Source: a virus
DNA length: 37,710 nucleotides
Strand: one strand, 5' to 3'
Virus record (IMG/VR): IMGVR_UViG_3300036828_001640
Coordinates: 1-37,710 of that record
Within the stretch, counting starts at the first letter, position 1. Each line of letters starts with the position of its first letter. A program made the translations under genes and the position numbers. Under the pieces are notes generated by a model. That model saw only the letters and a program-made list of their open reading frames with translations. It did not search any database and was not told the DNA's origin. This document shows positions 2,578-34,743 of the stretch, piece by piece.

Positions 2578-3246
2578 TTAGAAAAATAGTAACTCAATTA
2601 ATTTTGTTGACAGTTTAAGAGATGCTTCATTATATCTAGAGAGAAAAATCAAACCATTTTTTGATAACTCTATATTGAATACTTGTTCATCAAAAAATGA
2701 AATTTTTATTTTAGATAAGTCGTAATATATATTTCCAAAAAGATTTTCGAAATCATAAATTGCATTAACACTTGAAGTAACCTCAAGTGATGCTTTTGAA
2801 TTTTTGGAAATCGAAATTTCGTTAAATCTAGCTTTAAATATTTTAAATTGATCTAGTTTATATCCTTTAGATAGGAAATTCTTTAAATCTATTTTCTTTG
2901 TTTTAAATGAGAGTTTTAACTTAAAAATGGAATTTAGATATTCAATTAAATATTTGGAATATTTATTTGGCTCATAAATAATGAAAAAGATTCTATTATT
3001 TATATAGTGAAATGAAAAATTTTGATGAAGAAAATAATCAAAAGTGAAGAGTTTCTCTTTCCCATCTATATCTTTCGATTGCTCAGTTCTTTTAAACTCT
3101 TGATAAAAAGTAGCTAAAAAAGAATAATCATCGTATTTAATATTAAATATTTTTTTTGATGAGTAAATAGAGTGAGAATCAGTTAATAGTGAAGACAATT
3201 GATTGAAGCTAATAGTTGTACTACATTCAAAAATATGAAATTTCAT
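2578..3246 (-). CDS. Unknown protein C of the three-gene cassette behind cI
   Basis: 222 aa from the ATG at 3246, which has AAGGA nine bases upstream; an in-frame ATG three codons earlier lacks room for a ribosome site. The protein is rich in F, I, K, N and Y, has no signal peptide or membrane span, and reads as a cytoplasmic alpha/beta protein (for example FFIIYEPNKYSKYLIEYLN at about 85-105). No family recognised. It is the last gene of a tight cassette, starting directly after the stop of gene B. Base use is even more AT-rich than the surrounding phage genes, consistent with separate acquisition. Probably a partner of A and B rather than a virion protein. Confidence 0.7.
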   Translation of the reverse strand: MKFHIFECSTTISFNQLSSLLTDSHSIYSSKKIFNIKYDDYSFLATFYQEFKRTEQSKDIDGKEKLFTFDYFLHQNFSFHYINNRIFFIIYEPNKYSKYLIEYLNSIFKLKLSFKTKKIDLKNFLSKGYKLDQFKIFKARFNEISISKNSKASLEVTSSVNAIYDFENLFGNIYYDLSKIKISFFDEQVFNIELSKNGLIFLSRYNEASLKLSTKLIELLFF

Positions 3247-3247
3247 T

Positions 3248-4369
3248 TTAAGCATCCTTGGTTTTTGGAGCAGGAATATTTTCAGATTTAATATTTATCT
3301 TTGGTAGTGTAGTTAGGGAGTTAATTAGTGCAATACCATTCTTAAATATAGCTTTATTAAAGATATTGTCTTCTAAGTGTGATAGAGATGTAATTGATTT
3401 GGAGTGCTTCCCTTTAATAAATTTATAAAAACCTTTAGAAATAAAGGAAAAATGACTTGATCCATCCTCATCATAAGTAACTTTAATAGATAATCTAAAT
3501 TTATCCGATTTTGTATTGGTTGTATCAATACAATCCCATGTAAACTTATGAAGTAAATATCCATCACTTAATCGAGCCTGAAAATCCTCTGAAAGATGAA
3601 GTTGATTGCCTTTATAAGTAGCACTAATAAGCTGATAGATTCCTTCATCTTCAGCATTATCATCTTTGTTTGGATCTTTAAAAAGTACCTCTACAACATT
3701 AGTTCTTTTATAATTATCAAATGTATTAGTTAATTCATCAAAAAACTGCCAATAGAGACTGGGATCTGTTAATCCAGTTAAGTCGATACTATTAATTTTC
3801 ATATTAACATCATGATTTTGAAGTAGTCCCAGAATTGAAGTGGACCATTTTATCATTTCAGGTGTTGCTGGATATTCAACATAATATTCATTATTTATTT
3901 TATCCTTCTTGAATGTTAATATTGCTTTTTTATTTTCTAATTGAGCAAACATTTGCTTTTCTGGATGAAATTTTTCATAATCAAAAGTAATATAAAATAT
4001 ATCATCATTTATGTTGTAATCAGGTTCAACATCTTTTAATTGAATATTTGAAAAATTCTTTTCTAGGCATTTTACTAAATCTGTTGTTATAGTTGTTAAA
4101 TCAGAAAAACTCAAGGACATTTCAAGACTTAATGGCGACGTATATTCAACTCTATCAATTTTACTATGTTGAGAAGAAATTTTCTCAAAATCATAATAAC
4201 CATGCATGAATGAAGAAAAATAATCAGCTTTTGATTCTCTTGATGTTTTATTACTTAATATGATACCACGCTGTAAGAACAATCCAGTTAATGCTGAGTC
4301 AGAAACTTTCCCAGTGCTAAGAGCACTATAGATATTGAAGTCATTTGGTATTTTAAAAGATTTGCTCAT
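3248..4369 (-). CDS. Unknown protein B of the three-gene cassette behind cI
   Basis: 373 aa, soluble, no signal peptide. Residues about 8-60 form a short helical unit (SALSTGKVSDSALTGLFLQR, then GIILSNKTSRESKADYF) that reminds me of SAP/HeH-like N-termini seen in some defence-associated proteins; that comparison is from memory and weak. The rest is predicted beta-rich. A 'SHFSFISKGFYKFIKGKHSK' stretch near 310-330 may bind nucleic acid. The ATG overlaps the stop of gene A (ATGA), so the proteins are probably made in fixed ratio and may form a complex. Function not known. Confidence 0.7.
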   Translation of the reverse strand: MSKSFKIPNDFNIYSALSTGKVSDSALTGLFLQRGIILSNKTSRESKADYFSSFMHGYYDFEKISSQHSKIDRVEYTSPLSLEMSLSFSDLTTITTDLVKCLEKNFSNIQLKDVEPDYNINDDIFYITFDYEKFHPEKQMFAQLENKKAILTFKKDKINNEYYVEYPATPEMIKWSTSILGLLQNHDVNMKINSIDLTGLTDPSLYWQFFDELTNTFDNYKRTNVVEVLFKDPNKDDNAEDEGIYQLISATYKGNQLHLSEDFQARLSDGYLLHKFTWDCIDTTNTKSDKFRLSIKVTYDEDGSSHFSFISKGFYKFIKGKHSKSITSLSHLEDNIFNKAIFKNGIALINSLTTLPKINIKSENIPAPKTKDA

Positions 4370-5475
4370 GTTGTTTCCTTTAAAGGACGATCAATTTTTT
4401 TATTACAAAAAACTTGTTTTATAATGGTAACTTCTTCATATTCAATTTTATTTAAAATGACTTTCATATTGTCACTATAATCCCACATTTCACAGTACCT
4501 ACTGAGAGCTAAAGTGAAATTTTGTTTAGCATTACTACACTTTTCTCTAGAGTAATGTCTTATATAAGTATCGCAATTTTCATGTATTAATTCATACATC
4601 ATAAGGCTTTCAATCAAATAGATAAATTCATCAACAGAATCGCCTTTATCTTTGTAATAGATAATATTTCCTCTATTATTTTCAATTGTCTTGGGTTTCT
4701 TTAGGTTCTTCGGGTTATGAGAATAAGTAATAAAACTTTCATAGGTCATAATGAAAAAAGGTCCACTTATTAACTCTAATGTTGCAGGACATTCTTTAGG
4801 AGTTAAACTTGGCTTTTTTCTTTGTCTATTAGGATAGTAGAATGAAATTGGAGAATGCACTTCATCTGAAGGTACTTTTCCTTTAGTTTTTAAAATGTCA
4901 AGATCTAGTTTGATTGATAAAATCGAATCAATTAATAATGGATCTATGATATGTAGTTTAATATTTGTAGGTATATCTAAATCTTTTAAATGAAAGCGAC
5001 TAGGTGATTTTTTTTTAGTCGATGGTGGATGGTTGGGATAATCATAGATAAAAGAATAAAAAGGAGTTTCAAACAATCCATCATGATTATAGACAAATAA
5101 CAAGCCACGAATCTCGTATTCACCTTCAACACTATAACGTTGTTTCCATTCTTTACTTACATTACTACAGACGGTTCCATTAGTTAGACTAATAAGCCAG
5201 TCTTTAACAGCTGAATATCCTATTGATTTTGAAGCATAGCTTTTCAAATCGGTATTAAAATAGATTTTCTTATTTTCATAAGGATCTATATATGAAATAA
5301 CCAAGTCCGTTGGATGCGTCTTCTTATCAGTTGGCTTTGAACCTTTAAAGTGTTCGTCTTTTATGCAACAAGTGAAGTCTAGATCATTTTCTTCATGAAT
5401 TTTCCATTTTAGAAAATTTCCGATATCCGCTACTATTAAATTAGCTAATTCAGATATTCGTATTGTTTCCGACAT
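4366..5475 (-). CDS. Unknown protein A of the cassette; PD-(D/E)XK-like signature
   Basis: 369 aa, cytoplasmic. Near the N-terminus a helix (about 8-26) is followed by PTDLVISY (P55, D57) and then, after a beta hairpin, IYFNTDLKSY with D77-L-K79. The order helix, (P)D, strand, D/E-x-K, helix is the signature of PD-(D/E)XK nucleases, so residues 1-100 may be a nuclease core. The call rests on motif spacing alone. The C-terminal half (about 215-369) is unrecognised and contains several Cys. The start has GAGGAAAT upstream and lies 19 bases after the cI stop, so it is likely co-transcribed with cI and expressed in the lysogen, as rexA is in lambda. A restriction or abortive-infection effector is the leading guess. 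Confidence 0.7.
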   Translation of the reverse strand: MSETIRISELANLIVADIGNFLKWKIHEENDLDFTCCIKDEHFKGSKPTDKKTHPTDLVISYIDPYENKKIYFNTDLKSYASKSIGYSAVKDWLISLTNGTVCSNVSKEWKQRYSVEGEYEIRGLLFVYNHDGLFETPFYSFIYDYPNHPPSTKKKSPSRFHLKDLDIPTNIKLHIIDPLLIDSILSIKLDLDILKTKGKVPSDEVHSPISFYYPNRQRKKPSLTPKECPATLELISGPFFIMTYESFITYSHNPKNLKKPKTIENNRGNIIYYKDKGDSVDEFIYLIESLMMYELIHENCDTYIRHYSREKCSNAKQNFTLALSRYCEMWDYSDNMKVILNKIEYEEVTIIKQVFCNKKIDRPLKETT

Positions 5476-11404: not shown

Positions 11405-12061
11405 ATGTTAAATATTAGATTCAATGTAGATGACCAAATAAGGCAAGTCAGTAGAGAACATAAAAGGCAAATAGATTTTGCTTTGGCTCAAACCGTTAAT
11501 AAGTTAGCCAAGTTAGCTCAAGCAGAAGAAAAGAAAGGCTTAGCGAGTTTCTTTGATACGCCTACGCCGTTCACTGTTAATTCAGTTGCAATCAAAGCAG
11601 CTAGAAAAGGCAATCCCACTGCAACGGTGTATATAAGACCAATAGCAGCAAAATATATAGAACCGTATGAATATGGTGGTAAGCAATACCTTGGGGCTAA
11701 GCCTGCTGATTTAGTTCCAATTAACGCCGTATCAAACCAATATGGCAACTTACCAAGAAACGCTATTAAGAAGTACATGAATAGAAAAGATGTGTTCTTG
11801 GGTAAGGTGAAAACATCAAGCGGTGTGGTGTATGGCTTATGGCAACGTCCAGCCTCACAAGCCCGCAGAGGCGCAAAGCGTACAAGGGGCGGACGGTTAG
11901 CAAATACAACAGGGCATTTAAAACTGCTTGTGTCATTTGCTGAGCCAGTCAATACACGTAAACGACTTAACTTTGGGCAACGGTCACAATTAATAGTGCA
12001 ACGTAATGCCGCCGTGTTGTTTAGAAACACATTAGCAAGTGCAATTGCTTCTGCTAGATAG
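11405..12061 (+). CDS. Minor tail/virion-like protein (gpZ-like candidate)
   Basis: 218 aa, strongly basic. An N-terminal helix (EHKRQIDFALAQTVNKLAKL) is followed by a mixed beta region (TATVYIRPIAAKYIEPYEYG) and an R/K-rich stretch (RRGAKRTRGGRL) near 155-167, ending in a helix (LFRNTLASAIASAR). The overall plan, helical start with 'AxNR/VNKLAxxA' followed by basic beta strands and a terminal helix, resembles lambda minor tail protein Z and related tail-completion proteins. That is my best guess; its position before the terminase rather than after the head genes is unusual. Confidence 0.45.
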   Translation: MLNIRFNVDDQIRQVSREHKRQIDFALAQTVNKLAKLAQAEEKKGLASFFDTPTPFTVNSVAIKAARKGNPTATVYIRPIAAKYIEPYEYGGKQYLGAKPADLVPINAVSNQYGNLPRNAIKKYMNRKDVFLGKVKTSSGVVYGLWQRPASQARRGAKRTRGGRLANTTGHLKLLVSFAEPVNTRKRLNFGQRSQLIVQRNAAVLFRNTLASAIASAR

Positions 12062-12070
12062 AGAATAGAT

Positions 12071-12265
12071 ATGAATCCATTAACAGTTTTACTTTGGTTG
12101 TTGTGTGCTTTCCTAGTGATTGGCTTCTTTGGTGGCATTGGTTTGTTGATCTATATGATTAAAAGCCGAAGGAAAGCAATTAAAGAGTTCAATGACCGTC
12201 TGGTCGCTATGAGGTTGAAGCCACACAAAGCATTTACAAAAGGTACTTCCCACAAGATCCTATAG
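12071..12265 (+). CDS. Small single-span membrane protein, 64 aa
   Basis: 64 aa with a long hydrophobic helix (residues 4-31, LTVLLWLLCAFLVIGFFGGI onward) and a positively charged cytoplasmic tail (KSRRKAIKEF), so N-out/C-in topology is expected. It starts nine bases after the gpZ-like gene. Small one-span proteins beside the packaging genes are unassigned in many phages; a holin or antiholin is possible but a separate holin exists at 36460. Confidence 0.5.
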   Translation: MNPLTVLLWLLCAFLVIGFFGGIGLLIYMIKSRRKAIKEFNDRLVAMRLKPHKAFTKGTSHKIL

Positions 12266-12318
12266 ACACGGGGATTGCGCAGCGTGCTTTGTGACTAGCT
12301 ACGAAATTTTTTGAAGTG

Positions 12319-12601
12319 GGTAACAGGGTAACGGGTAACATGAATCAAGCACAATTTGCTCGACTCCATGAAGTAAGCAAAAAGACTGTTACCTCATGGA
12401 AAAATAAAGGTTGGGTTGTCTTAAACACAGATGGCTCGGTTGATGTAGAGCTAAGCAATAAAAATTTAGAACTCTACAGAAAAGAAAAAAATACACCAGA
12501 TGAAGTAATAGGTTTCAAAGTTACCCAAGGTAACGAGGTAACGGATTCAGGTAACGATTCAGAGGGTAACCCTGATCCAAATGACGAGTTTTCAGGTTAC
12601 C
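12319..12601. repeat. GGTAAC repeat cluster, candidate packaging/cos-binding region
   Basis: Ten GGTAAC hexamers occur in 283 bases: three direct copies just before the terS ATG (12319, 12327, 12334), one inverted at 12388, and inside the gene four direct (12529, 12537, 12550, 12565) plus two inverted (GTTACC 12520 and 12596). About 0.1-0.2 would be expected by chance. Lambda-type small terminase binds repeated sites next to cos at this same place in the genome, so these may be its recognition sites, with the nick near the GC-richer stretch at 12265-12300. Confidence 0.5.
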
Positions 12602-12915
12602 CAGAAACAAAGTTGCCTGCTAAGGAATTAAATCGGCGCTTAACTTTAGAAAAGCTAAAACTAGAACGTGAGCGGGCAAGAGCGGCTGAATACGATACAG
12701 CAATTAGAGAAGGTCGATTATTAGAAGCCGACAAGGTATATCAACACGATGCAGAAGTTGCAGCTCAACTACAACGAAAGTTACTTTCTTTGCCTTCTGA
12801 GCTTGCAGTTCGTCTTTCAGCAATTAACTCACCCGCAGAAATTGAAAGTTTACTGAGAGAGGAATTGACGTACTGCCTTAATGAGTTCTTAGATTCTTAT
12901 GAAACTGAAAATTAG
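12340..12915 (+). CDS. Terminase small subunit (Nu1-like)
   Basis: 191 aa from ATG 12340, chosen over GTG 12316 because the helix-turn-helix begins here. Residues 1-40 (MNQAQFARLHEVSKKTVTSW) form the DNA-binding domain seen in lambda Nu1, 50-95 is a low-complexity acidic linker encoded by GGTAAC repeats, and 95-191 is helical (KLPAKELNRRLTLEKLKLER) for assembly and contact with the large subunit. It recognises the packaging site. It overlaps the large-subunit gene by 17 bases, which keeps the two coupled. Confidence 0.8.
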   Translation: MNQAQFARLHEVSKKTVTSWKNKGWVVLNTDGSVDVELSNKNLELYRKEKNTPDEVIGFKVTQGNEVTDSGNDSEGNPDPNDEFSGYPETKLPAKELNRRLTLEKLKLERERARAAEYDTAIREGRLLEADKVYQHDAEVAAQLQRKLLSLPSELAVRLSAINSPAEIESLLREELTYCLNEFLDSYETEN

Positions 12916-14860
12916 AGCGAGTTTTGCCGATGCATTAAGACCGCCACCATTTCTGTCAGTTAGTAAATGGTCAGAGCAATACATGGTGCTGTCTGCTGAC
13001 TATTCAGCAAGCACTGGACGTTTTAAGGCATATCCATATCAAAACGGCATTATGGATGCCATGATAGATTCAAAAAATAAAACCATTGTCGTTATGAAGT
13101 CAGCGCGTGTTGGTTATACCCAGATTTTAAATAATGCTTTCGGTTATTTTATCCATTATCAGCCTTCACCGATTTTGATTGTACAGCCACGTAATGGCGA
13201 TGCAGAGGATCATTCTAAAGGTGTTATTGCACCAATGCTGCGTGATGTACCTGTTCTAGCAAAATTAGGTGGTGATGCAAAAAGCAAAGATTCTAATCAG
13301 ACTATATTGGCAAAAAAGTTCAATAATGGTTCAAGTGTAAAACTGATTGGTGCTGATTCACCAGGTGGCTTTCGTCGTGTCACAGTTCGAGTGGTAATGT
13401 TTGATGAGATTGACGGCTATCCGGTGGGTGGTGCTGGTGCTGAGGGTGATCAAATCTCACTTGGTAAAAAACGTGCTGAAACTTACTGGAATAGTGTCAT
13501 TGTTCTTGGATCAACACCAACAAACAAGGGCGACAGTCGAATAGAGAAGGCATGGCAGAACAGCGACATGCGCCGTTATTTTGTTCCATGCCCTCACTGT
13601 CAGGAACTGCAAGTTTTGGAGTGGGGCGGGAAAGATACTTCACATGGAATCAAATGGAAACGTGATGAGCTTGGCGAGTATATAGAGGATTCTGCTTATT
13701 ATTCTTGTATCAATGGATGTGAGATAACAGAAGATCATAAAGGCCGGATGATTCAAAATGGTGTATGGCAGGCAACAGCTCCATTCAAAGGGCATGCAGG
13801 TTTTCATATTTGGACTGGTTATTCATTACTTCCTAAAGCGGGCTGGTCAAGACTTGTTGAGGAATGGTTGAATGTCCACAAAGATCCATTGCAACGTAAA
13901 ACATTTTTTAACCTTGTTTTAGGTGAGCCATTTGATGATCTCGGTGAACACGTTTTACCTGAGGGGCAATTATTAGAGCGGTGCGAAAGCTGGATTGATG
14001 AAGTTCCTAATGGTGTTGGTGTATTAACAGCTGGTATCGACTTTCAATATGATCGCTGTGAGATTGAAGTTGTTGGATGGGGCCGTTATGAGGAATCATG
14101 GTCTATTGCTTATGAAACAATTTATGGTGAGATTGATGATCCCAATTATTGGGCAAAAATAGATGCTTATTTGGCAAAACGATTTCGCAGAGGCGATGGC
14201 CGGCCTTTTACAATTTCCGCAGCATGCCTAGATTCGGGTGGTCAAGAAGGTCATACACAAAAGGTTTATGACTTTTGTAAGGAACGTCTTTCTCGTCGGA
14301 TATGGGCAATTAAAGGCGAGTCAGCGCGAAATGGTAAACGCTCACCTGTATGGCCAACTAAGAAACCAACAAACCGAACAAAGAAAAGTTTTAAGCCGAT
14401 CATTCTTGGGGTGAATAGTGCTAAGGATCAGATCAGACGCAGGCTACATCTTGATGTGACTGGTCCTGGTTATATGCATTTTCCTAGTGATCGAGACATT
14501 GGATATTTTCAACAGTTATTAGCTGAAAGACTAATGACTAGAAAAATAGGTGCTGATACATATCGAGTTTGGGAGTTACCTGCAGGCAAGGCTAACGAGG
14601 CTTTGGATTGTCGTGTATATGCTTATGCTGCGTTATGTGGCCTCAATCACATGGGTTTAAAACTTAATAATCTATGTGAGCGATTGGAAAAGCTAGACTT
14701 TGTACCAATGCAAGAAATTGAGCGAGTTTTAGATGATCATGTGGATGTTAATGATCTTACTCAATCAGATCCAAACGCTAACAAAGCTGTAAAAGTTACC
14801 AAAGTTGAAGTATCTAAGAAAAAATCACTGGCTGAGAGAATGGCTGAAATGAACAATTAA
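12899..14860 (+). CDS. Terminase large subunit (lambda GpA family)
   Basis: 653 aa, the packaging motor and cos nuclease. The ATPase has a variant Walker A K67-SARVGYTQ-Q75, Walker B VVMFDEID (D169, E170) and coupling motif LGSTPTNKGD. A CxxC pair (CPHCQEL and YYSCINGC) lies between domains as in GpA. The nuclease follows from about 375: TAGIDFQYDRCEIEV (first Asp), CLDSGGQEG and NEALDCRVYAYAAL. Length and motif order match lambda gpA (641 aa), which implies cos-type packaging with cohesive ends. It is followed directly by an intrinsic terminator. Confidence 0.95.
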   Translation: MKLKIRASFADALRPPPFLSVSKWSEQYMVLSADYSASTGRFKAYPYQNGIMDAMIDSKNKTIVVMKSARVGYTQILNNAFGYFIHYQPSPILIVQPRNGDAEDHSKGVIAPMLRDVPVLAKLGGDAKSKDSNQTILAKKFNNGSSVKLIGADSPGGFRRVTVRVVMFDEIDGYPVGGAGAEGDQISLGKKRAETYWNSVIVLGSTPTNKGDSRIEKAWQNSDMRRYFVPCPHCQELQVLEWGGKDTSHGIKWKRDELGEYIEDSAYYSCINGCEITEDHKGRMIQNGVWQATAPFKGHAGFHIWTGYSLLPKAGWSRLVEEWLNVHKDPLQRKTFFNLVLGEPFDDLGEHVLPEGQLLERCESWIDEVPNGVGVLTAGIDFQYDRCEIEVVGWGRYEESWSIAYETIYGEIDDPNYWAKIDAYLAKRFRRGDGRPFTISAACLDSGGQEGHTQKVYDFCKERLSRRIWAIKGESARNGKRSPVWPTKKPTNRTKKSFKPIILGVNSAKDQIRRRLHLDVTGPGYMHFPSDRDIGYFQQLLAERLMTRKIGADTYRVWELPAGKANEALDCRVYAYAALCGLNHMGLKLNNLCERLEKLDFVPMQEIERVLDDHVDVNDLTQSDPNANKAVKVTKVEVSKKKSLAERMAEMNN

Positions 14861-21380: not shown

Positions 21381-22889
21381 ATGGTTCCTTTTTCAAATGT
21401 GCCTAATGATGTTCGAGTACCATTATTTTATGCTGAAGTAGATAACTCTCAAGCAAATTCAGCAACAACAGTACAACGGACCTTAATTATTGGTCAAATT
21501 ACTAGCCTAGGTACAGCTACACCTGAATTGCCTCAGATTTGTGGTGGGGTTGGTGATGCTCAAGCTAAGTATGGTATTAATTCTCAGCTTGCAGCAATGG
21601 TTGCGGCTTACCGCAAAAATGATGATTTTGGTGAAGTTTGGTGCTTACCACTTTTAGATCCAGGAGACGCGCCGTCAGCTACAGCAACAATTACAATTTC
21701 TGGTACACCATTGAAAAATGGTGCGATTAGCTTATACGTTGGTGGGGGCGGTTACTGGGGGGATGGAACAGGTTTATATCAAGTTCCTGTAACTACATTC
21801 TCTACTGAAAGTTCAATTGTTACTTCACTTATTAACTTAATTAATTCAGATTTAAAAGCTCCCGTAAAAGCAACAAGTGCTGGGGCTGGAAAAATTAAAT
21901 TAACGGCTGTTCACGGTGGGGCAATTGGTAATGAAATTGACCTTCGCTTAGATTACTTAGACACACTAGGCGGGCAATCAACACCATCGGGACTCTCAGT
22001 TCTTTTTGATTCACAAAAGTTAATTGGTGGTGCTCTAAACCCAAATTTAGAAGGTCCACTTTCTAGCCTTGGTGATACGACTTTTGATTTCATTGTCTGC
22101 CCATATGTGGATACAGCCTCTTTAAATGCCTTGGATAATTTTCTCGGCATGCAAACGGGGCGATGGTCATGGAGCCAGCAACTTTATGGCAATTACTTTG
22201 CTGTAAATAACGGAACTTTTGGTGACCAGACAACATTGGGAACAACTCGAAATAGTCCTTATGGTTGTATTTTAGGTGTATATGACTCTCCAACACCGTC
22301 ATGGATTATTGCAGCTCAATATGTTGGTGCTATCGCTCAATCACTAAAAAACGATCCCGGTCGACCACTTCAAACTTTACCCATTGTCGGCATGTTTGCA
22401 CCTCCAACAGCAAGCCGTTTTGCATTAACAGATCGAAATATTCTTTTATATAACGGTATTTCGACTTTAACGGTTGGTGATGATGGGCTTTGTCGTGTTG
22501 AAGCAATAATTACAACCTACCAAAAAAATGCATTTGGATCCCCTGACAATTCATACTTGAAAATCGAAACCATGTTTTTACTGGCTTATATTTTGCGGTA
22601 CATGAAAACTCGGATTACAACGAAGTATGGCCGTATGAAGTTAGCAGCAAATGGAACGAGATTTGCTCAGGGTTCAGCGATCGTTACACCAAATATTATC
22701 CGTTCAGATGTCATTGCCGCTTATCAGGAACTCGAATTTAACGGTCATGTTCAAGATGCTGATGCTTTCGCCAAAGCACTTATTGTCGAGCAAAATTCTG
22801 AAAATCCAAATCGGGTTGATGTGTTGTGGCCAGGTACTTTGATTAATCAATTAAATGTGTTTGCGCTTTTGGCTCAATTCAAATTGTAA
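21381..22889 (+). CDS. Contractile tail sheath (Mu gpL-like)
   Basis: 502 aa. Starts MVPFSNVPNDVRVPLFYAEV, then TVQRTLIIGQITSLGTA; the C-terminal third carries the conserved sheath core (ETMFLLAYILRYMKTRITTK, then IVTPNIIRSDVIAAYQELE). This is the Mu-type sheath that contracts to drive the tube through the envelope, so the virion is a myovirus. A AAGAGG site precedes the ATG. Its first 20 residues recur at the start of the 675-aa protein at 32716. Confidence 0.95.
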   Translation: MVPFSNVPNDVRVPLFYAEVDNSQANSATTVQRTLIIGQITSLGTATPELPQICGGVGDAQAKYGINSQLAAMVAAYRKNDDFGEVWCLPLLDPGDAPSATATITISGTPLKNGAISLYVGGGGYWGDGTGLYQVPVTTFSTESSIVTSLINLINSDLKAPVKATSAGAGKIKLTAVHGGAIGNEIDLRLDYLDTLGGQSTPSGLSVLFDSQKLIGGALNPNLEGPLSSLGDTTFDFIVCPYVDTASLNALDNFLGMQTGRWSWSQQLYGNYFAVNNGTFGDQTTLGTTRNSPYGCILGVYDSPTPSWIIAAQYVGAIAQSLKNDPGRPLQTLPIVGMFAPPTASRFALTDRNILLYNGISTLTVGDDGLCRVEAIITTYQKNAFGSPDNSYLKIETMFLLAYILRYMKTRITTKYGRMKLAANGTRFAQGSAIVTPNIIRSDVIAAYQELEFNGHVQDADAFAKALIVEQNSENPNRVDVLWPGTLINQLNVFALLAQFKL

Positions 22890-32715: not shown

Positions 32716-34743
32716 ATGATTCCATTTAATAAAATACCAAGGGGACTAAGAGTCCCTTTATTTTTTGGTGAATTAGCAATTGATGGCGATGTGTTAGGGG
32801 GGAGTCCACAACCACCTCAACCGGGTATTAGTTGTGTTGGTGCATCTGAAAAAATGAACTTTGGAAGTTTTCGTGGTTATTGGGATATGGAACTAAACGG
32901 AGTTTTTTATCCATCATCAACAGACTTACTTCAAAACTATATTACAAATCATTTTAGTGACAAAATTTACGCTGATTATGATGGGTTTATTAATTTTGGC
33001 AATATCTCACACGATGATCACAGGATACGTCTTATACCAATAATGGATGCGGGTTATTCCAATCCTTATGGGAATGACACCTTTATGGAAAATGAGGATG
33101 GTAGTTTAACGTTTTGCTTGAAAGGAGTTGTTGAAAAACCCGTAATTTCATGTGACGGTGCAACAGCCAATTTACCTTTAAGTATTACCCTACCAATGCA
33201 TGCAGCAGATGGTACTTTTACTATTAGAGATTCAAGCAAAACAGCTAATAATGAATTGGATGTTATTGTTGAAATTTTTGGATCAGACATTGTTGAGGGG
33301 CAAGATTTTGTAACTCAATTAAAGACTTTAGTAAATCCCGATTATGCAAGCTTAGTTTCATTTACCACACTTAATCCAACAGTTTTTGCTGGAGATGGTA
33401 CGGTTACAGGTTATATCAATATCAAAGCAAACGTACCAGATTTGCGTATCTCAGTAGAATTGATTAAAGCAATTGATGTAAATCCTGAACTCTTATTTTT
33501 AAATATCCTTACACCAACAAATCCAGCTACACCTACATATTTTTGGGATACTCATGATCCTGAAAATGGTAATTACTTATTAAGTGCTTGTATAAGTGAC
33601 AATAATTTAATTTCATGTGCAGGGGCAACTCAATCAATAATGTTTGAACCAGGACCTGCATTTAATGGTCAAATTAATTGGGCTGTTGAGTTTGATGGAG
33701 TTACTTACGATATTGGTAACGTTTGGGCTGGTGAAATTATCAGCAATATGCCTAGCCACATTAAAGATATGATTTTCATGGAGTGGACTGGCTTATGGTT
33801 GGTGGAAAACAGAGATACTCAACCACACAGATTTAAATTAATACCTTCACCTAAGCCTGGTTATGATCCTATACAAGCACCATCATCAACTAACGAATCA
33901 TTCTTGTTAAATGAAGATGGTTCATTTGCATTTTGTTTAGCTGGGGCTGAACCAGTTTTCCCACCATATGCAGTAGTGAAAACAAGAGCGCTTTGGGGCA
34001 GTAGCTTTCCTGCCAAAATCACTGTTAATGGTACAGAATATTCAGGCGATCTATTCGGCAATTTAGCTGACGTTTTAGCACATCAATACAATGTCTACAC
34101 AGGTTTTGAAAGAATCTATGGGGATTTTGAAGGTGATCCTGATTTAGTACGTGTTGTATTTGCTGGGGATGTCTTTGCTGAGAATGCAAGTATCTCTGTT
34201 GAGTTTTTATCTGAAATCGCTATAAATATTGATGATAGCTTCTCGTACCCAGAAAATGAAACGCTTAAAATTAATGGAAAATCAGCAAGCTTTAATATTG
34301 GTAAGCTGGTTTGTATTACTAAAGTCGCTCAATATGGCAGTATCAATAATTCCAACTTTTTACTTGAGTATGGTCAGCCATTTAATTTTAGAGTTGGGGA
34401 TAAAATTAATACCAATATCCTCACAAATAGAATTGCTGGTGCTGGAATAGAAGATCCTGCAAGCTTTTGTGCTTCTGCAGCATCACCAGAGGGCTGTGTG
34501 CAAAGCAATCTACTTTCTAACCTGAGTGAGCAATGGAATCCCGAATTAAGGACCATTAATGTAAAAGTAAGTTGGTCGGGACTAAGTAGAGTCGTGATGC
34601 CATTAAATGCAAGCGATGATAAAGGTGTTGGTGACCCTTTTGCTACAGCAAAATTTGTAGTACAGCCAAACGATAAGACTCCTATCAATGATATGTATTT
34701 TCTTGGTTATACCATTCCAACATGTGATGATATGCCATCTTAA
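32716..34743 (+). CDS. Large repeat protein with a sheath-like N-terminus
   Basis: 675 aa, no signal peptide. Residues 1-20 (MIPFNKIPRGLRVPLFFGEL) closely resemble the sheath start MVPFSNVPNDVRVPLFYAEV. The rest is tandem modules: ISCVGAS (38) to FCLKG (137), ISCDGAT (144) and ISCAGAT (299) to FCLAG (410). The module ends share NEDGS-x2-FCL-x-G and the intervening domains share VFAGD and ISVE-type strands (about 224-252 and 481-505). A Cys-containing beta-rich multi-domain protein in the fibre region suggests a virion decoration or adhesin bound to the tail. I know no family for it. Confidence 0.75.
   Translation: MIPFNKIPRGLRVPLFFGELAIDGDVLGGSPQPPQPGISCVGASEKMNFGSFRGYWDMELNGVFYPSSTDLLQNYITNHFSDKIYADYDGFINFGNISHDDHRIRLIPIMDAGYSNPYGNDTFMENEDGSLTFCLKGVVEKPVISCDGATANLPLSITLPMHAADGTFTIRDSSKTANNELDVIVEIFGSDIVEGQDFVTQLKTLVNPDYASLVSFTTLNPTVFAGDGTVTGYINIKANVPDLRISVELIKAIDVNPELLFLNILTPTNPATPTYFWDTHDPENGNYLLSACISDNNLISCAGATQSIMFEPGPAFNGQINWAVEFDGVTYDIGNVWAGEIISNMPSHIKDMIFMEWTGLWLVENRDTQPHRFKLIPSPKPGYDPIQAPSSTNESFLLNEDGSFAFCLAGAEPVFPPYAVVKTRALWGSSFPAKITVNGTEYSGDLFGNLADVLAHQYNVYTGFERIYGDFEGDPDLVRVVFAGDVFAENASISVEFLSEIAINIDDSFSYPENETLKINGKSASFNIGKLVCITKVAQYGSINNSNFLLEYGQPFNFRVGDKINTNILTNRIAGAGIEDPASFCASAASPEGCVQSNLLSNLSEQWNPELRTINVKVSWSGLSRVVMPLNASDDKGVGDPFATAKFVVQPNDKTPINDMYFLGYTIPTCDDMPS

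Follow-up and report, generated by a model that had tools for sequence, protein, structure and literature searches.

GGTAAC repeats around a small terminase gene as candidate terminase-binding sites of a lambda-type cos

The window analysed here, meaning the whole stretch of 37,710 bases of viral DNA, carries a packaging locus on its plus strand. A minor-tail-protein-like gene (phrog_1924, 11405..12061) lies upstream of the predicted cos. It is followed by terS for the small terminase subunit (12340..12915; phrog_57, E 4.9e-26), whose product consists of an N-terminal winged helix-turn-helix (wHTH), a linker and a helical C-terminal part. The next gene, terL (12899..14860), encodes a large terminase subunit of the lambda gpA type (PF05876, PF20454), and downstream of it we found gpW and then a lambda-family portal. 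The closest annotated phages were Serratia phage vB_SspM_BZS1 and Citrobacter phiNP, with TerS proteins 35% and 33% identical to that of the window, respectively. According to the BZS1 paper, this phage (p72) and others have a minor-tail-like gene at the same place (PMC7556043). In Pfam and NCBIfam no family scored above the cut-off for TerS, leaving PHROG 57 as its only assignment. A PDB sequence search with TerS gave weak matches only (the best was RppC, E 0.33), and the nucleotide search of the phage collection returned one weak match, to TerL.

Two further regions of the window deserve mention. On the minus strand, 2578-5475 holds a low-GC three-gene cassette, two proteins of which match PADLOC Hp1 (E 2.5e-54) and Hp2 (E 8.2e-17). 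Its order and size suggest that it may be a defence system of the Hp1-Hp2-Hp3 type with a diverged third gene. A 675-aa protein without a Pfam match is encoded at 32716-34743, and its first 20 residues are identical at 10 of 20 positions to those of the tail sheath protein at 21381. By sequence it resembles a sheath-like N-terminal arm placed on another protein.

The hexamer GGTAAC/GTTACC is strongly clustered around the start of terS. There are 19 copies in the window against a chance mean of 10.7, i.e. about 0.08 per 283 bp, and ten of them start within 12319-12601, at 12319, 12327, 12334, 12388 (minus strand), 12520 (minus), 12529, 12537, 12550, 12565 and 12596 (minus). When the window was simulated 200 times with a second-order Markov model, the densest 283-bp stretch contained three hexamers. 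The count of ten in 283 bases given in the initial annotation is exact, and we confirmed that three copies precede the start codon and six are packed in a coding stretch. The three form a proximal cluster (12319..12339, plus strand) abutting the terS ATG (12340) on its 5′ side. The six lie in 12520-12601 and comprise an inverted site (12520..12525, minus strand), four direct sites (12529..12570, plus strand) and another inverted site (12596..12601, minus strand). The remaining R-like site (12388..12393, minus strand) falls in the HTH, in the recognition-helix codons V17-T18, and in BZS1 the site in these codons has the opposite orientation with the residues unchanged.

We built an AlphaFold2 model of TerS on 25 own and fetched sequences. 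It has a winged HTH at residues 1-50, a disordered linker at residues 52-89 (pLDDT <50) and three long helices. The linker codons occupy 12493..12606 on the plus strand, and six of the seven coding hexamers lie within this predicted disordered stretch, in codons 61-88. The wHTH matched the structure of RppC (6hn7, Z 6.8), a PICI protein that redirects packaging, and two packaging-motor DNA-binding domains, 7lw0 (Z 6.4) and 7lwr (Z 6.0), both with an rmsd of 1.4, over 48 and 46 residues respectively; phage Xis and BldC came next. These Z-scores are modest, and for the modelled domain they indicate fold rather than function. Foldseek alone with the TerS model gave no match with E below 0.001.

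As GN is the product of three of the seven coding sites, selection could be proposed to act on the G-N-rich linker as protein, with the hexamers arising as a side effect of codon choice. We compared the terS coding sequence with a synonymous-codon null in which the TerS protein was fixed and codon usage was taken from ten other phage genes of the window. The seven hexamers exceeded all of the 20,000 draws (mean 0.93, maximum 6). Moreover, the coding hexamers translate as GN, VT, EVT and GYP, i.e. they use all three reading frames, so a peptide repeat alone cannot account for them. The codon choice for GN was also distinct, with GGTAAC used in 3/3 cases in terS vs 1/23 elsewhere in the sampled phage genes. 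Noncoding copies of the hexamer, and the unrelated linkers that track other words in other TerS classes (see below), contradict this explanation as well, and we consider it extremely unlikely.

BZS1 is the closest phage with mapped ends. The available part of its description reports 12-nt 5′ cohesive ends GCATTGCGCGCC, from a PhageTerm prediction and a PCR check across the prophage junction, and makes no mention of repeats (PMC7556043). The BZS1 record starts at the mapped left end, and its first GGTAAC is at bp 48-53. In the window, the sequence aligned to the BZS1 overhang is GGATTGCGCAGC (12272..12283, plus strand), which we predict to be cosN with its 12-nt cohesive end. With cosN projected from BZS1 by homology (bp 1 = 12272), the first hexamer is again at bp 48. 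The proximal sites start at bp 48, 56 and 63, which is the position of R3 in lambda (bp 50-65) and N15 (bp 48-59) (PMC9026076, PMC4669245). In the distal cluster the inverted sites are at bp 249 and bp 325 and the direct sites at bp 258, 266, 279 and 294. A cosQ-like element, AGGTACTTCC (12241..12250, plus strand), is located 31 nt before the predicted left end. It has two substitutions, and most relatives have GGGTCCTTCC. The distance from cosQ to the left end is 31 nt for GGGTCCTTCC of BZS1 and 30 nt for GGGTCC of lambda. Between cosN and the first R site there is a CTAG (12295..12298, plus strand) that is kept in nearly all relatives read. A CTAG near bp 26 is common to nearly all TerS classes and also occurs upstream of some TerS without a visible repeat.

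Some pac phages have their packaging site within or close to the small terminase gene, and on this ground the repeats could be a pac site used in headful packaging rather than part of a cos. However, TerL is of the lambda gpA type and the BZS1 ends are cohesive (PMC7556043), and we give the pac reading very little credence.

We compared the cos predicted in the window with known ones. It shares several features with the complex cosB of lambda and phage 21 (R3-I1-R2-R1), namely a cosQ some 30 nt ahead of the left end, a first R site near bp 50, an inverted-then-direct order of sites, a wHTH in TerS and a gpA-type TerL. The 12-nt 5′ ends of lambda are mapped also in BZS1 and are predicted for the window by homology. 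The specificity of TerS for its R sites is known to differ between lambda and 21. Unlike lambda, which has three 16-bp sites, all noncoding, and an IHF site, the window has short sites that are mostly coding. The two-fold symmetry of cosN is 4/16 in the window, whose nick positions were placed by homology, 6/16 in BZS1 and 10/16 in lambda. The cohesive ends of the window and BZS1 are each identical to that of lambda at 5 of 12 positions, and that of N15 at 10 of 12. Because of this 5/12 identity the family falls outside the strict lambda-like definition (PMC4669245), and on its sequence we file the window cos as one of the lambda/N15 kind, outside the strict lambda-like group.

The simple cosB of N15 is similar to the window in having R3 at bp 48-59 and an inverted rR2 within terS, at bp 249-260, compared with bp 249-330 for the distal sites of the window. 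The N15-type features present in the window are an R3-like site, remote copies in terS about 200 bp away and no IHF site. A search of the window for the IHF consensus with at most one mismatch found none, and N15 is also without an IHF site (PMC9026076). With no IHF consensus in the window, the DNA may be bent by TerS itself or by another host protein. N15 differs from the window family in having one plus one 12-bp sites, of which rR2 is not critical, against 4-18 hexamers (mode 10) in the family and ten candidate sites in the window. It also differs in the cohesive-end sequence and the TerS word. BZS1 has the same hexamers, positions and TerS class as the window, with a TerS that is only about 35% identical. 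The initial annotation had equated the location with lambda cos/cosB, and both the homology to BZS1, with its published ends, and a set of 137 distinct terS loci support this. Its proposal of terminase recognition sites of a new type stands in part: the comparisons favour a role as cosB, while the sites appear to be an expanded lambda/N15-type cosB rather than a wholly new type.

The terS loci were gathered from IMG/VR, GTDB genomes and phage records, and 116 loci have the window-type recognition helix. Acinetobacter, several Enterobacterales, Pseudomonas and one alphaproteobacterium are represented. In 114 of the 116 loci, many of which are closely related so that the counts are not independent, the first GGTAAC was at bp 48-50 counted from cosQ, while the terS start ranged over bp 62-211. 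Each locus had 4-18 sites, with a mode of 10, usually with a direct cluster proximally, followed by one or two inverted sites and then a run of mostly direct ones. The flanks RGGTAACA and a frequent 12-bp spacing were common to coding and noncoding sites.

These relatives also bear on the view, already expressed in the initial annotation, that DNA and not protein is selected, which the synonymous null and the use of three frames support. It had suggested checking whether the hexamers are conserved where linker residues differ, and they are: L002 and L003 keep the hexamers with other residues. In L028, L029, L032 and L036, where GN repeats are absent from the linker, the hexamers are carried outside it: an extra noncoding segment, which separates the first pair from the ATG, holds 4-6 more copies. 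L011 has both the GN repeats in the linker and the extra noncoding segment. Other TerS classes change word and linker together.

We made some additional observations on individual loci. L233 has 18 GGTAAC sites after cosN, and its linker cluster is apparently duplicated. Five Xenorhabdus-type loci (L015, L032, L225, L226, L227) have 2-4 extra GGTAAC upstream of cosQ, at about bp -50 to -73 and some further out, i.e. on the other side of cosN. In the terS of L033 and L034, from Rouxiella and Pantoea relatives, the frame is broken after an A10 run, about 157 bases in. The zero frame ends at residue 86 and covers the wHTH and linker, and the -1 frame runs into the well conserved C-terminal domain. 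It is possible that a programmed frameshift or transcriptional slippage yields two forms of TerS in these two loci. Three direct GGTAAC copies in a row are not by themselves diagnostic of a terS locus, as only 5 were near terS among the 120 matches listed from IMG/VR, where there were at least 120.

The hexamers could instead serve as an operator through which a repressor, possibly TerS itself, controls the transcription or translation of terS, with packaging incidental. In favour of this, three copies adjoin the start codon, TerS contains a wHTH, and relatives that bind direct repeats, e.g. BldC, are regulators (PMC5859096). However, the position of the sites is fixed relative to cosN and not to the start codon, and promoter-like sites in the region were at chance level (2 found, 2.2 expected). 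This makes a purely regulatory role unlikely. A dual role of the hexamers, as operator and in packaging, is possible.

Using the shared C-terminal part of TerS as the query, we retrieved TerS proteins with other recognition helices. These classes retain the cosQ block, the cosN block, CTAG near bp 26 and a first site near bp 48, but the word varies among them. TerS with the helix SRKTVTxWK goes with GGTAAC, SPKTVTKWK with GGTAAA, SEKTVSVWK with GGTAAG, SAKTVSKYK with GGGTAAT/GGTAAC, VKQSVAQWK with ACTGACGA, SKPAVTKWK with GGTTAAC, SDTLVRKA with GGTTCGCA, DDKQVRRGI with TGTCCGC and SRPAIKKNI (Acetobacter phiAP1) with GGTTGCA. For a covariation test we took hexamers at bp 45-59, unsupervised, from one representative per class and counted them in every other distal region. 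The own-class counts summed to 41 (the trace) over the nine helix classes, of which four have words with a GGTAA core, so that about six words are fully distinct. None of 20,000 class permutations reached this sum, and the Markov control gave mostly 0-1. For three more pairs, SKPAVGKWE with AGTAAACC, SDTLVHQAL with TTTGCA and SKAIVTKWK with GTGAAC, there was no cosQ nearby, and they were therefore matched only by eye. No convincing repeated word was seen in Asaia L038 or in the distant TerS of L245-L248 (Paracoccus Pyei1, Pseudomonas ZRG1, Bordetella PY223, Roseobacter CRP-811), and the distant cases mean that the scheme does not span the whole TerS superfamily.

The linker residues track the word of their class (GN, GK, TDE, VN, GS, VS, QP), which suggests that the linker is a tolerant protein stretch whose residues would be set largely by the DNA word. 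From the covariation, TerS is almost certainly the reader of the word. Short direct repeats spaced about one helical turn apart would also suit replication iterons, or binding by a host protein or a restriction-modification protein. Yet the distance to cosN is fixed in many phages and the word changes with the TerS recognition helix, and these roles can be given hardly any weight.

Sequence comparison establishes the cosQ- and cosN-like elements, the first hexamer at bp 48, the variable placement of the copies and the covariation of word and helix. Taken together with these, the hexamers are very probably the TerS-binding (R) sites of a lambda-type cos, and make up a many-site cosB that overlaps terS. 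We propose that the winged HTH of TerS binds RGGTAACA. The proximal sites (bp 48-68), occupied by TerS, would anchor TerL, as R3 does in lambda, and cosN would be nicked 12 bp apart. The same TerS oligomer, with its wHTHs on flexible linkers, would also hold the distal cluster (bp 249-330), and the approximately 200 bp between the clusters would be looped or wrapped, giving avidity and specificity. Cooperative multimers of BldC assemble head to tail on direct repeats (PMC5859096), which would, by analogy, be a precedent for tandem binding by a MerR-like wHTH. BldC and MerR-like wHTH proteins are similar to TerS in fold but are transcription regulators, with a 9-bp register and no packaging role.

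In the open-licence papers searched (for GGTAAC with terminase, iterons at cos, and R sites in terS), such repeats were undescribed beyond rR2 of N15. The nearest precedent is N15, whose terS contains one accessory site. As far as the literature was searched, the multivalent hexamer cosB, its extension through linker codons, the class-wise change of word and linker, and the shifts between coding and noncoding placement are new.

Detailed genetics of how terminase selects viral DNA exist for only a few cos phages (lambda, 21, N15). We think it fairly likely that in Proteobacteria a broad group of cos phages relies on a multivalent cosB made up of 4-18 short words lying partly in terS, and that TerS falls into at least nine helix classes with matching words. 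The linker residues would then be set by the packaging signal and not by protein function, and cosB together with the wHTH-linker would be exchangeable as one specificity module. Here a single anatomy comes with nine or more specificities, and the sequence reveals both partners, which makes a recognition code linking TerS helix to R site directly testable. The TerS linker would also be a clear example of a disordered protein segment whose amino acids are imposed by a signal in the DNA. For uncultured phages the same anatomy suggests a rule for locating genome ends: GGGTCC, then a 12-nt cosN, then repeats from bp 48.
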